From contig NZ_QKZT01000001.1 in the NCBI RefSeq assembly GCF_003254055.1, forward strand, positions 62,001 to 126,000: DNA of 64,000 bases, given 5' to 3'. The notes below the pieces were generated by a model. The model ran no database searches, had not been told where the DNA came from, and worked only from the letters and a program-made list of their open reading frames with translations. The stretch is from Algoriphagus chordae (GTDB lineage: Bacteria; Bacteroidota; Bacteroidia; Cytophagales; Cyclobacteriaceae). The stretch's first letter is position 1, and every line of letters starts with the position of its first letter. Both the position numbers and the translations under genes were made by a program. This document shows positions 44,531-48,449 of this stretch, in pieces.

Positions 44531-44569
44531 GTAGGGGCGAAAGATTTTTCGCCCCTACTTTTGTTTTTT
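44531..44569 (+). terminator. Terminator after the thiamine-regulated receptor
   Basis: A perfect 12-bp stem GTAGGGGCGAAA / TTTCGCCCCTAC with loop GATT, followed by TTTTGTTTTTT. The left arm, loop and half of the right arm recur at 48467, so this is also a repeated element. Confidence 0.92.
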
Positions 44570-45054
44570 CAAATCCCCAACCTCTCCTTAATTACCTCCA
44601 AGCCCGCAACCGCATCTTTTTCTGTCGCAAAATCAAGCGCTAAAAACTTGGTGCCATCCGCTAACAAGACTACTTTATAAATAGTGATTAGCCCATTGAA
44701 TGTAGGAGTAATCCCATTTGGGATAAAAGAAGTACGATAAGTGTGGTGTATGATTTCTGCATGATTTATTTCTGGGAGCTCTACCCATTCTCCGGATTCA
44801 AACCAGAGAATCTTTTGATACTCTTTGAATTTTTTGTTTCGAAAGTCAAACAGAATTCCTGAGTTGATAGAGCTTAAGAATATTCCTAACACTAATGCCC
44901 CTCCGCCTACTAGCGCTATTTTGACAGGAGCTGTATCTAACTCCACAAAAAATGCGGTTAGAATCACCACTATCCCAGATGCCAGAAATATCTGTCCAAG
45001 TAGTCTAGGACCCTTGGTCCCATCATTTTGACTTTTGTATTTAAAATATTGCAA
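44569..45054 (-). CDS. Two-helix membrane protein, hypothetical
   Basis: A 161-aa protein with two transmembrane helices (about residues 19-36 and 45-62: GQIFLASGIVVILTAFF and ALVGGGALVLGIFLSS) and a cytosolic-type C-terminal half (FRNKKFKEYQKILWFESGEWVELP) that resembles a PH-like beta domain. No firm family was recognised. It converges on the receptor gene at the shared terminator. Confidence 0.65.
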   Translation of the reverse strand: MQYFKYKSQNDGTKGPRLLGQIFLASGIVVILTAFFVELDTAPVKIALVGGGALVLGIFLSSINSGILFDFRNKKFKEYQKILWFESGEWVELPEINHAEIIHHTYRTSFIPNGITPTFNGLITIYKVVLLADGTKFLALDFATEKDAVAGLEVIKERLGI

Positions 45055-45095
45055 GCGAAGGAAATTTTATCTAGCTCAATAAAATAAACAATCTG

Positions 45096-45713
45096 TCAAT
45101 TACATAGTATTTCAACCCTTAGTTGTATTTCTCTATCCACGAGCGTTCGATCCACCCAGCTCCCGCTATAGGCAATATCCCAATCAAAGCGATCTATTTC
45201 GATAATAGCAGTGAATCGATTTTTATGAGCTGTAGCTCTAAATGAAATTGTATTGGAAATTCCTTTTATCTCTAATTCACCCACTATATCCAATTCCCCG
45301 CTCTCATCTTTCATGACTTGAACAATCGTAAATCTTGAAAATGGAAACTTATCCACATCGAAAAAATCAGCACTTTTAAGGTGATTTGTGAGGTTTCGAA
45401 TAGGAATTGGATCTGTAGCAGGAATATCTGTCACGCTGATGCTATTCATATCTATGATAATTTCTCCCCCAGTTAATTGCCCATTGGATTGCAATAGATA
45501 TCCATTACGAATCGCTATTTCGCCTTCATGCTTTCCCAATCCCATCATTTTGGTGCCCTTCCAAAATATTTTGGATTCAACTATGTCAATTGCAAGAGTA
45601 TCTGCCTCCACTGTAGAAATTGGCTCTAGGATATACTCGGAAGATTTAGAGTCTGAACCTACTACGCAACTAACCATTAACAGTCCAAAAATGAAGCTTT
45701 GGAACTCATTCAT
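45096..45713 (-). CDS. YceI-like domain lipoprotein
   Basis: A 205-aa protein with a short signal and a possible lipobox (LMVSC near residue 16). The lipocalin-like YceI fold is visible: IVESKIFWKGTKMMGLGKHEGEI, GGEIIIDMNSISVTD, HLKSADFFDVDKFPFSRFTI and GELEIKGISNTISF. YceI proteins bind isoprenoid or amphiphilic ligands in the periplasm. It overlaps the dioxygenase-like gene by 8 bases. Confidence 0.87.
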   Translation of the reverse strand: MNEFQSFIFGLLMVSCVVGSDSKSSEYILEPISTVEADTLAIDIVESKIFWKGTKMMGLGKHEGEIAIRNGYLLQSNGQLTGGEIIIDMNSISVTDIPATDPIPIRNLTNHLKSADFFDVDKFPFSRFTIVQVMKDESGELDIVGELEIKGISNTISFRATAHKNRFTAIIEIDRFDWDIAYSGSWVDRTLVDREIQLRVEILCN

Positions 45714-46341
45714 AATCTGGAATATTCAAGCCAAGAATAAGATCTCTGTGCACAGTCAACAATCCATGCGCTTTCACAGGTGTCACTATCCCAGAGCCTC
45801 CTCGGTTTGGTAAATTCTTTCGCTTTTCATCTGAAAGAAGTAGATCATCTTCAAACACAAATTCATCCAGATAGTAAGCAGATTTTCCTGGCTCTTTTAC
45901 AGTGAGATGAATATGTTCTGGTTCATTACTACTAGGATAAGCTCCTGGCCGAAATGTGTAGAAAGTATAATTTCCCTCACTGTCAGTCCTTAACCATCCA
46001 CGAATAAAGCCGTGCCGTTTAGCCCAAGCGACTTCATCTCCTTTGGTCTCGTAGATTCCTTCTCGATTGGTATGGTAGATATAAAGGACAACATCTGCAG
46101 CGGGTGTTTTACCATCCTTTTGAAGAACCTTTCCTGTGACTTTCAACTTAGGTTCGTTTTCCAAAAAGAGCGGAAGCGTATCTATGGCATTTAGCTTCTC
46201 GTCTCCAAATTCAAAAATTGCCTCACAGCCCTCGCAAGGGCCACCGACAATTTTGTCATTATTGGACCTTAATGATTGCCCTGTGCAGGAGCTGAAAATA
46301 AAAATCATCAGCCAGCCCATAATTAACTTATAGTTTTTCAT
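45706..46341 (-). CDS. Intradiol ring-cleavage dioxygenase-like lipoprotein
   Basis: A 211-aa protein with a lipoprotein signal (IFSSC). The beta-sandwich of intradiol dioxygenases is shown by KVTGKVLQKDGKTPAADVVLYIYHTN, GIYETKG (first Tyr ligand), RTDSEGNYTFYTFRPGAYPSS (second Tyr) and EPEHIHLTV (two His ligands). The four Fe(III) ligands therefore appear intact. Such exported enzymes cleave catechols. The start at 46341 is preferred; a longer frame overlaps the LytTR gene without a signal. Confidence 0.87.
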   Translation of the reverse strand: MKNYKLIMGWLMIFIFSSCTGQSLRSNNDKIVGGPCEGCEAIFEFGDEKLNAIDTLPLFLENEPKLKVTGKVLQKDGKTPAADVVLYIYHTNREGIYETKGDEVAWAKRHGFIRGWLRTDSEGNYTFYTFRPGAYPSSNEPEHIHLTVKEPGKSAYYLDEFVFEDDLLLSDEKRKNLPNRGGSGIVTPVKAHGLLTVHRDLILGLNIPDYE

Positions 46342-46417
46342 TTCGCAGTTTTTCCAAAAGCTGCAAAGAAGTCTGCTGATCCAAAAATAAAATAGGCTAT
46401 GCTGTGGAAAATCTAAC

Positions 46418-47233
46418 TCAAGACGATGGGTACTTCGAAAGCTTCTGCTTGAAGTTATCCACATAATTTCGACTCAATCGGATTTCCTTCTGATTAGAAA
46501 GTTGCACATCGTAGTCTCCATTGAGACGGGATTTGTAGGAAATAACTTTAGTCAGATTAACAATAGTAGATTTATGGATCTGCACAAACTTCGCTGGATT
46601 CAGCTGCTCCAAAACAGATTTAAGTGTAGAAGTATGAAGGTGTTTTTTCGCATCTACATGAATTTCTATATAGGGTGAAGCAGCTCTGATGTACAAAATA
46701 TCCTTGCAATGGATCGCAGTCTTTGTTCTTCCCGAACCCACAATCAGCTGCTCCAAAAATCTAGCTTTTTCAATTTTAGCAGGCTTCTTTTTCTTAATCA
46801 GCAACAAGGCTATTACCGAATAAATTAGCAAATACTTATATAAATCCTCAGATATGGTGTATCGAAGGTTTCGAATAAATCCAAAGGTATGCTCATAGAA
46901 ACTCGCGGATATCAAATGCACCAAGCCAGCAAAAAGTAGCATGTGAGCTACAGTCGCTACAAGGACAAAAACGAAGCGTTGGACAAATAAATTTGGAAGC
47001 TTTTCACTGATAGAAACCTTCTGAAATAACCAATTCAATAGAAAAGCTACTGGCAGAATCAGTATCCAAAAGGTATTGAAAAGGAAAGATTCGGAAGCGT
47101 AGAATGGATACTCGTTAGTTCTGGAATGCAGGTAATCCTGCAAAATCGTCACCAACAATACCAGAATCAAGACAACGAGATACTTAAGCGTTGCTTTGAT
47201 TCTGGGTTTCTTTTGTTGGTGCTTTGCATTCAT
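46418..47233 (-). CDS. Membrane-bound LytTR-family transcription regulator
   Basis: A 271-aa protein with four transmembrane helices in the first 165 residues and a C-terminal LytTR DNA-binding domain: IHCKDILYIRAASPYIEIHV, HTSTLKSVLEQLNPAKFVQIHKSTIVNL and RLNGDYDVQLSNQKEIRLSRNYVDNFKQKL. Such proteins sense a membrane signal and bind DNA directly, without a phosphoacceptor domain. It starts 5 bases after the fic gene, so both share the operator-rich promoter. Confidence 0.92.
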   Translation of the reverse strand: MNAKHQQKKPRIKATLKYLVVLILVLLVTILQDYLHSRTNEYPFYASESFLFNTFWILILPVAFLLNWLFQKVSISEKLPNLFVQRFVFVLVATVAHMLLFAGLVHLISASFYEHTFGFIRNLRYTISEDLYKYLLIYSVIALLLIKKKKPAKIEKARFLEQLIVGSGRTKTAIHCKDILYIRAASPYIEIHVDAKKHLHTSTLKSVLEQLNPAKFVQIHKSTIVNLTKVISYKSRLNGDYDVQLSNQKEIRLSRNYVDNFKQKLSKYPSS

Positions 47234-47238
47234 TTTCC

Positions 47239-48306
47239 TTAAGATTTTGAAGTGAGCAGCGCATATAGCTTTTCGTTCACATAGTAATTTCCTGTGCCTA
47301 GTTTCTCTTTTCTCAGCACACCATCTTCTGCCAGCTTGTTGAGATAGTTAGCAGCAGTGATACGAGATACACCCAAGTCACGCACGATAAACTCAATCTT
47401 CGTGTATGGATGTTTGAACAGATTATTGAGTAATTCCTGAGAATAAAACTTATAATTATCTCGAAGCCGAATTTTCATTTCAGCCATCAAAACCTTCAAC
47501 TTTTCGATCAGATCTATCGTCTCCCGGGCAGTATTTTCAACTCCTCTAATCATATAAGATAACCAACTTTCCCAATCTCTATTTTCACGCACTCCCTGAA
47601 GCAAGCGGTAATAGTCAGCTTTGTTGCGAATAATATGGCTACTCAGGTAAAGGATCGGAAGCTTTTGCAAGCCTGCCAAAATCAAGTATAAAATATTCAA
47701 AATCCTTCCTGTACGACCATTTCCATCATAGAATGGGTGAATGCTCTCAAACTGAAAATGAATAATAGCCATCTTCACCAGGGGATCTAGATCACTCAGT
47801 TCGGGACGATTGATAAACTGCTCCAGATTGGATATCAGTCTAAGTATCTCATCGGCATCTTGCGGTGGAAGATAAACAGTTTCACCAGTCTGTGTATTTT
47901 TAAGTGCGGTGCCTGGCAGTTTGCGAAAACCTGCATTATTCCCCTCCAAGATCTCCTGGATCTGAAGAATTATCTGATTGGTCAATACCCCTTGTGTCTC
48001 TACCAAATCAAATCCACTTTTCATCGCCGCCACGTAATTTTTCACTTCTTTGACCGCTGGAGACATAGACTCAAACTCCAAATCTGACTTGAAAAGCTCA
48101 TCGTGGGTAGTGATTATATTCTCCACGGCTGAGCTATCCTTGGCTTCTTGAATCGCCAGCGTATTCAGCAAAATCTCATGATTGGGGATAGAATATACCA
48201 ATCCTTTCAACTCTGCCAATGCCGCATGCGCAGTAGGAAGTTGCTTGAGAATTGTTCTTGTTTCCAATTCTAGGTCATAAGGCAAAGGAGTTAGATTCCA
48301 AGTCAT
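47239..48306 (-). CDS. Fic family protein with inhibitory helix and C-terminal winged helix
   Basis: A 355-aa Fic enzyme. The active loop is HPFYDGNGRTGR (His190 catalytic), which transfers AMP or another nucleotide to target proteins. An intramolecular inhibitory motif S-x3-E-N is present at residues 58-63 (SSAVEN), making it a class II, self-inhibited Fic. The last 65 residues are a winged helix (IVRDLGVSRITAANYLNKLAEDGVLRKE), so it may bind its own promoter, which carries several copies of an inverted motif. Confidence 0.93.
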   Translation of the reverse strand: MTWNLTPLPYDLELETRTILKQLPTAHAALAELKGLVYSIPNHEILLNTLAIQEAKDSSAVENIITTHDELFKSDLEFESMSPAVKEVKNYVAAMKSGFDLVETQGVLTNQIILQIQEILEGNNAGFRKLPGTALKNTQTGETVYLPPQDADEILRLISNLEQFINRPELSDLDPLVKMAIIHFQFESIHPFYDGNGRTGRILNILYLILAGLQKLPILYLSSHIIRNKADYYRLLQGVRENRDWESWLSYMIRGVENTARETIDLIEKLKVLMAEMKIRLRDNYKFYSQELLNNLFKHPYTKIEFIVRDLGVSRITAANYLNKLAEDGVLRKEKLGTGNYYVNEKLYALLTSKS

Positions 48307-48449
48307 ATGTAAAGATTTTCCAATTTTCTTTACAAAGATAAAGCTATGTGCAAAGAAAAGCTATAGTTTCTTTACATACCAAAGGGTTTATGTAAAGGTT
48401 TTTCGATTTTCTTTACATATTAATAATGATATGTAACGCGGCTTTACAT
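48307..48449. promoter_or_regulatory. Operator array upstream of fic-lytTR
   Basis: Four inverted repeats built from half-site ATGTAAAG and its complement CTTTACAT: 48307-48334 (N13 spacer, last base mismatched), 48348-48377 (imperfect left half, N14), 48390-48418 (perfect, N13) and 48431-48449 (left half ATGTAACG, N3 spacer). The first begins right at the start codon. Confidence 0.85.
48333..48340 (-). promoter_or_regulatory. Candidate -7 box of fic
   Basis: On the minus strand TATCTTTG fits TAnnTTTG. It lies between the first and second operator repeats, and the start site would fall inside the first, as expected for repression. Confidence 0.5.

Follow-up and report, generated by a model that had tools for sequence, protein, structure and literature searches.

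What reads the row of inverted repeats in front of a fic gene of Algoriphagus chordae, and is it the Fic protein itself? The array bears on what the winged helix of SoFic-type enzymes does. According to the available part of a 2023 paper, DNA binding by SoFic had not been demonstrated experimentally at that date, and a specific DNA site was called for in the case of CbFic2 (PMC10628234). We analyzed 64,000 nt of A. chordae (GCF_003254055.1, contig NZ_QKZT01000001.1, positions 62,001-126,000), hereafter the window, together with fic loci from other genomes.

Eight Alternating Half-Sites Abut the fic Start Codon

Reading of the window confirmed that the array is real and that, as an earlier note on this DNA had claimed, four inverted repeats with spacers of 13, 14, 13, and 3 bp lie directly 5′ of fic:

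48307-48335: IR1, the start-proximal repeat; arms ATGTAAAG (48307-48314) and CTTTACAA (48328-48335), spacer 13; directly adjoins the fic start codon, shares bases with the -7 box, and is conserved in orthologues
48348-48377: IR2; arms GTGCAAAG (48348-48355) and CTTTACAT (48370-48377), spacer 14, two mismatches in the left arm; lies over the -33 region
48390-48418: IR3; arms ATGTAAAG (48390-48397) and CTTTACAT (48411-48418), spacer 13
48431-48449: IR4, compressed and promoter-distal; arms ATGTAACG (48431-48438) and CTTTACAT (48442-48449), spacer 3

The centers of successive repeats are 41.5, 41.5, and 36 bp apart, in agreement with the spacing of about 41.5 bp that the note gave for the first three. 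Measured from start to start of the 8-mers, the half-sites follow one another at 21, 20, 22, 20, 21, 20, and then 11 bp, so the array is better described as eight TGTAAAG-type half-sites of alternating orientation than as four separate palindromes. The note's view of an operator-like array on one face of the DNA is supported. Exact ATGTAAAG occurs six times in the 64 kb (2.64 expected), and five of these copies fall within the 143 bp of the array. No exact match to either ATGTAAAG-N13-CTTTACA or TGTAWAG-N13/14-CTWTACA was found elsewhere in the 5.2-Mb genome.

The Downstream Gene Encodes a SoFic-Type Fic Protein

Two genes of the operon matter for the question posed here:

47239-48306, minus strand: fic, a 355-aa class II Fic protein with Fic_N, Fic, and a SoFic-like_C winged helix, our proposed self-repressor (Pfam, PADLOC, PDB relatives, structural model)
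46418-47233, minus strand: the next gene in the operon, for a membrane LytTR protein that is not the partner of the array (LytTR from Pfam; the membrane part is our reading of the sequence)

Pfam identifies Fic_N, Fic, and SoFic-like_C in the Fic protein (1e-26, 1.8e-17, and 9.6e-21, all above cut-off), and the PADLOC SoFic profile PDLC03963 matches it over its full length (E 4.6e-118, residues 5-352). The SoFic equivalog model NF046030 of NCBIfam reaches 362.7 bits (E 1.9e-108), below its curated cut-off of 550 bits, and the protein is not filed as a strict SoFic equivalog. PDB entry 3eqx, the SoFic of Shewanella, aligns with residues 1-355 at Z 41.5 (rmsd 2.1 over 350 residues, 41% identity). 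The AlphaFold2 model (pLDDT 85) ends in a winged helix made of helices 290-298, 304-311, and 315-327, the last being the recognition helix, and strands 332-336 and 339-343.

The class II inhibitory motif is defined as (S/T)xxxE(G/N). The translation carries SSAVEN at this motif and HPFYDGNGRTGR at HPFxDGNGRxxR; S58, S59, E62, and N63 are invariant in group A1. The domains, the SoFic fold, and SSAVEN together support the note's assignment of a class II Fic with a winged helix, and from its sequence the protein appears to be a SoFic-type, anti-phage-type protein-modifying enzyme with putative AMP-transferase activity.

The LytTR gene starts 5 nt past fic. Genes for LytTR, intradiol-dioxygenase-like, and YceI-like proteins and a small ORF come after fic at 44569-47233. 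In some relatives (L008, L011, L013) the LytTR gene instead lies upstream of fic.

The Array Is Conserved with fic Across Bacteroidota

The note suggested looking for the half-site upstream of fic genes in other genomes, and it does recur there. Our orthologue set comprised the best 80 of 145 fic loci (61-95% identity), 79 of which have at least 200 bp upstream. In the 19,731 bp upstream of these 79 genes, TGTAAAG/CTTTACA occurs 186 times, compared with 94 times in the remaining 395,837 bp of the same loci, which corresponds to 9.4 versus 0.24 copies per kb and a 40-fold enrichment. At least one exact half-site precedes 66 of the 79 genes and at least three precede 30. The array is kept upstream of fic in records from Bacteroidales, Flavobacteriaceae, and Saprospiraceae that have no LytTR gene; the half-site itself has shifted, in that many Bacteroidales have TGTATAG and some Flavobacteriaceae have TGATAAG.

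The geometry recurs as well. Among 99 nonidentical orthologues, successive 7-mer half-sites stand most often in plus/minus order at 20 bp (131 times) and in minus/plus order at 21 bp (102 times), then 41. Exact half-sites number 0-9 per locus, and the compressed pair (plus/minus at 10 bp) appears seven times. Of six compressed palindromes, five could be indexed; all five lie at the promoter-distal end, and the L056 example comes from Saprospiraceae. This 17-bp palindrome, TGTAAAG-N3-CTTTACA, is one helical turn tighter than its neighbors and stands at the distal end both in the window (48431-48449) and at L004, L056, L090, L091, and L092; it may be a cap or reflect a different binding mode.

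The genome of the window is close to that of Algoriphagus aquimarinus, whose Fic protein is 95% identical. In six same-genus loci picked for equal spacing, column identity is 0.93 in the half-sites, 0.68 in the inner spacers, and 0.58 in the linkers. Linkers thus drift and half-sites do not, a pattern that indicates selection on the half-sites. The array is very likely functional.

The Array Lies over the fic Promoter

TAnnTTTG is the consensus of the Bacteroidota-type -7 box, and the window has one copy in front of fic:

48333-48340, minus strand: -7 box TATCTTTG (TAnnTTTG); runs into the TGTAAAG half-site of IR1 and ends 26 nt before the fic ATG

The earlier note had reported such a box between the first two repeats; the box is present, although it does not stand free between them but overlaps IR1 at its promoter-side arm. 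By eye, the window itself shows no TTG where the -33 element would be expected. Across the 99 orthologues, TAnnTTTG occurs within 120 bp in 74, compared with 7.2 in random sequence of like dinucleotide composition, and it overlaps a half-site in 66. The distance from box to ATG is 25-32 nt in 62 of these 66 loci, and a TTG precedes the box by 19 nt in 20 cases and by 21-22 nt in 12. TAnnTT precedes the start-proximal plus-strand half-site in 63 of 72 cases and other half-sites in only 1 of 112, which places the array on the promoter. Given the position of the box and this overlap, IR1 extends across the -7 box and the place where transcription would be expected to start. The window fic therefore has inverted repeats over its own promoter, a trait that recalls CccR.

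These observations lead us to propose that the array is the operator of fic for its own product, and we consider it probable that the SoFic-type Fic attaches to the array as a dimer, with the winged helix making the contact, and that it represses the promoter of its own gene. In this proposal, the dimer would set its two C-terminal winged helices on opposed TGTAAAG half-sites about 20.5 bp apart, a step of two helical turns that we infer to span about 70 Å of B-DNA. Several dimers would sit side by side along one face of the DNA. Those at IR1 and IR2 would mask the promoter from the -33 region through the -7 box to the expected start point and would thereby repress transcription of fic, with the further half-site copies making repression cooperative. 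The loop would keep a potentially toxic defense enzyme low until it is needed.

An alternative that is partly compatible with self-repression is that Fic binds the array as an activator, or mainly to switch its own enzymatic activity. IR3 and IR4 lie upstream of the promoter in an activator-like place, and the available text of PMC10628234 reports that the activity of CbFic2 is altered by DNA binding. IR1, however, extends over the -7 box up to the start codon, which is the position of a repressor, and CccR is described as a repressor in the part of PMC9755527 available to us. We regard this alternative as unlikely.

The Half-Site Varies with the Predicted DNA-Reading Helix of the Fic Subfamily

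Beyond the orthologues, we compared 216 fic loci, which reduce to 200 that are nonidentical and have at least 150 bp upstream. A palindrome with a 13-14 bp spacer precedes 141 of these 200 fic genes as against 44 of 209 other genes, and two or more precede 88 of 200 as against 8 of 209; by the 13-14 bp criterion, the other 59 fic loci have none. Taken group by group, the counts (random expectation in parentheses) are 18/18 (2.6) for the group with at least 75% identity and 60/81 (14.7), 9/18 (2.9), 15/27 (4.1), and 39/56 (8.3) for the others. Under the same criterion, a control spacer of 25-26 bp gives 2/18, 19/81, 5/18, 3/27, and 11/56.

We sorted the loci by the sequence of the recognition helix and matched operators with up to 2 mismatches in 14. 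The own-class counts below are partly circular because the class words were picked after the loci had been viewed and because class A additionally required 60% identity:

Class A, helix SR.TAANYL: TGTA[AT]AG or TGATAAG in 93 of 96 loci
Class B, helix PKTVGNYL: AGGGTAA in 25 of 27
Class C, helix SRTTLTKYF: TGTCCAT/TGTTCAT in 11 of 11
Class D, helix AENTARKYL: ACATTAA in 6 of 15
Helix SRITASKYLK: TGTATAA/TGTAAAA in 7 of 8, four of which also match the class A operator
Class G, helix RQTASEYL: TGTCGAA in 3 of 8
Class F, helix ERKAASRYL: its own operator in 0 of 7

Classes D, G, and F fit poorly (6/15, 3/8, and 0/7), and 28 loci fit no helix class, 12 of which have the class A operator. The informative part of the comparison is the scarcity of cross-hits. 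TGTATAA/TGTAAAA resembles the class A site and also matches 81 of the 96 class A loci; the remaining cross-matches between named classes are single loci. On these counts, the half-site appears to change with the class of the subfamily's DNA-reading helix.

Paralogues within single genomes behave similarly. Ten genomes were picked because at least two paralogues had been fetched from each; in six of them (G065, G017, G067, G072, G019, and G080) an operator of its own precedes each of two paralogues, and in the other four (G062, G023, G129, and G131) a class word was matched by just one of the pair.

Covariation lends only modest support to a link with the recognition helix, and we do not use it as proof. 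In a sliding window over 56 representatives, the top partial correlation (0.25) falls at residues 307-318, residues 199-210 of the catalytic domain are nearly as high (0.24), and residues 314-327 reach 0.13, a value also attained in 51 of 2000 permutations. A single phylogeny underlies both subfamily and operator, which counts against the link.

A second operator type, with TGAGCCGA-type palindromes at about -71 and/or -49, precedes nine further fic genes (L331, L333, L335, L338, L340, L343, L344, L346, and L347) in same-genus genomes and in the genome of the window itself (L346, whose protein carries DUF4172 in Pfam).

Palindromes also accompany fic on plasmids. Our sample of 12 chosen loci (ten from Pseudomonadota, one from Fusobacteriota, and one from Hymenobacter, so that eleven lie outside Bacteroidota) has, within 150 bp, a palindrome matching at 6/7 positions or better with a 13-14 bp spacer in 12/12 cases (4.4 expected), and a perfect palindrome in 7/12 (0.3 expected). 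On the Azotobacter (L297) and Croceicoccus (L300) plasmids, fic lies between an annotated DNA methyltransferase gene and one for a restriction endonuclease subunit S; an IS5 transposase intervenes among these neighbors in L300 only.

Fic proteins apparently lacking a winged helix, a label that rests on length and sequence (Pfam shows a Fic domain alone in all seven scanned of the 12), have a palindrome in 1 of 12 cases. A 320-aa Fic group with what seems to be a winged-helix end has one in four of eight, none with two copies; in this group L354 has no in-frame ATG, so its upstream stretch is unreliable. Two further Fic groups meant as a negative control turned out positive, with palindromes in 18/20 and 15/20, and by our reading of their sequences these groups, too, appear to have a winged helix at their C-terminal end. 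Pfam scans of two of their members (L308 and L346), and of L349 from the 320-aa group, gave no HTH domain.

The wider survey weakened the idea of a 13-bp spacer fixed for all subfamilies. Palindromes of about 25-30 bp match over a range of spacers, and in other subfamilies such long palindromes smear the spacing, so that 13 bp is not sharply fixed. A palindrome of that length is what these additional groups and the wider SoFic-like set have in common, and a sharp 20/21-bp alternation was demonstrated solely for the window's own Fic family.

A separate repressor or activator encoded elsewhere in the host could also read the palindromes and control the fic genes, and the array could in principle serve a stress regulator. 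Because paralogous fic genes with different operators share single genomes, this reading would need a number of dedicated regulators, each tied to a single Fic subfamily and passed on together with it across great distances and even to plasmids. The pattern is, moreover, rare for Fic proteins with no apparent winged helix, and in the genome of the window the exact pair motif occurs at this one fic locus only. We judge such a regulator improbable.

The Array Does Not Follow the LytTR Gene

The earlier note had pointed out that both operon products carry DNA-binding domains, in agreement with Pfam (SoFic-like_C, a winged helix, in Fic; LytTR in its neighbor), and had left open which of the two genes the motif follows. 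LytTR relatives occur in the flanks (up to 3 kb) of 8 of the best 80 of 145 fic loci, all eight among the 12 Algoriphagus loci and none among the 68 others. We also inspected 19 LytTR loci. Eight of these (L168-L172 and L174-L176), none of which is directly preceded by fic or a fic relic, lack an exact half-site in the 450 bp before the gene, and the same holds for two distant LytTR relatives (L177 and L181). At L167 and L173, fic is upstream of LytTR and the array lies farther out. One locus (L163, in G044, a genome with no fic match) has a single exact CTTTACA about 70 bp upstream of LytTR, which may be a relic or chance. The rest of the 19 carry relic arrays; at L176, the LytTR, dioxygenase, and YceI genes stand before such an array.

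That the neighboring membrane LytTR protein binds the array and controls the operon thus seems very improbable, even though its gene begins 5 nt after fic, it has a DNA-binding domain, and the half-site at L163 lies in front of a LytTR gene. The array persists in records from other groups that have no LytTR gene, the eight LytTR loci above have no half-site, and half-sites differ by Fic subfamily within a single genome. We likewise set aside a LytTR-controlled operon, as the motif does not co-occur with the LytTR gene. The coupled Fic/LytTR-sensor switch envisaged in the note finds no support because LytTR adjoins fic only in some Algoriphagus. Its broader suggestion of autoregulation by an operon product fares better, with Fic as that product: the motif is conserved with fic and follows the Fic winged helix.

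Arrays at loci with no intact fic occur in 11 same-genus genomes (G001, G019, G021, G037, G038, G041, G043, G052, G053, G063, and G066); relic arrays were noted at L144-L149, L152, L162, L164, L176, and L179. At the five joints examined (G019, G021, G037, G043, and G066), the promoter-proximal repeat and the 5′ part of fic are gone and a 3′ fragment of fic is left, with at least three different deletion joints and with LytTR kept in several; G001 has a fic-like remnant by eye. These remnants suggest that the fic-less arrays are relics of repeated fic loss, and we therefore do not read them as a regulon of trans targets. Such loss fits a gene that is dispensable or costly.

Two occurrences away from fic are of another kind. 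In G119 (L150, 3955-4064), three repeats of the same type have no fic nearby, and the next ORFs, by our reading, encode a 164-aa protein and an IS30-like transposase. In G072 (L151, 3866-3894), a single TGTAAAA...CTTTACA palindrome lies, again by our reading, between a HigA-like gene and a HigB-HigA-like pair.

That the repeats, being palindromic and repeated, are merely RNA hairpins, a repeat element, or chance is scarcely credible: in 62/66 loci the promoter box stops 25-32 nt short of the ATG, which would leave IR2-IR4 outside that transcript; within the genome of the window, exact copies occur at the fic promoter alone; and the half-sites hold constant while linkers drift.

Relation to Known Fic Proteins and Implications

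Self-repression by a Fic-HTH protein is already known once. CccR of Yersinia pseudotuberculosis, like the window protein, joins a Fic domain to a C-terminal HTH; it represses its own promoter through palindromes, for which dimerization is needed, and has inverted repeats near its -35 and -10 boxes (PMC9755527, available part). Its HTH helices are 70.2 Å apart, close to the approximately 70 Å of the 20.5-bp half-site step in the window. Its operator differs in being one inverted repeat with 10-bp arms and a 26-bp spacer (AGATAATCAT), as against 13 bp in the window. CccR is a secreted effector, and, unlike the present analysis, the available text of that paper includes neither a tandem array nor a family-wide operator survey.

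SoFic of Shewanella oneidensis and EcSofic (PDB 3eqx, 3zcn, and 3zec) have the same domain order as the window Fic. In the portion of PMC12249575 available, Sofic is described as a protein that defends by abortive infection, EcSofic as dimeric in solution through helix 1, and the C-terminal domain as placed differently in apo EcSofic and in ATP-bound SoFic. A gene for a 47-residue antitoxin lies downstream of EcSofic, whereas the LytTR gene follows the window fic after 5 nt, and that text describes no operator for SoFic or EcSofic, in contrast to the array seen here. CbFic2 of Coxiella burnetii is also a class II Fic with a C-terminal winged helix, which binds DNA and thereby switches the enzyme between AMPylation and deAMPylation; it differs in belonging to a family with an N-terminal DUF4172, and in the available part of PMC10628234 random DNA was used, the specific site being unknown. 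A search of titles and abstracts found no literature on operator arrays of SoFic-type genes, with subscription journals and preprints mostly outside its coverage. The new elements are the operator array, how widely it is conserved, and the variation of its half-sites from one Fic protein to another.

More tentatively, and with less confidence than we place in self-repression by the window Fic, all Fic proteins with a C-terminal winged helix might be their own transcription factors. The dimer would set the spacing of about two turns, the winged helix would set the half-site, and rows of sites would form a cooperative self-repressing switch that does without an antitoxin gene. While bound to its operator, the enzyme may also be kept inactive. 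If so, release from the array would raise Fic expression and activity together. Self-repression would explain how a defense enzyme is kept low with no antitoxin gene. The loci yield predicted binding sites for several Fic subfamilies, each with a specificity control in its own and its paralogue's half-site, and would amount to a naturally occurring collection of repressor-operator pairs that are similar in geometry and differ in specificity.
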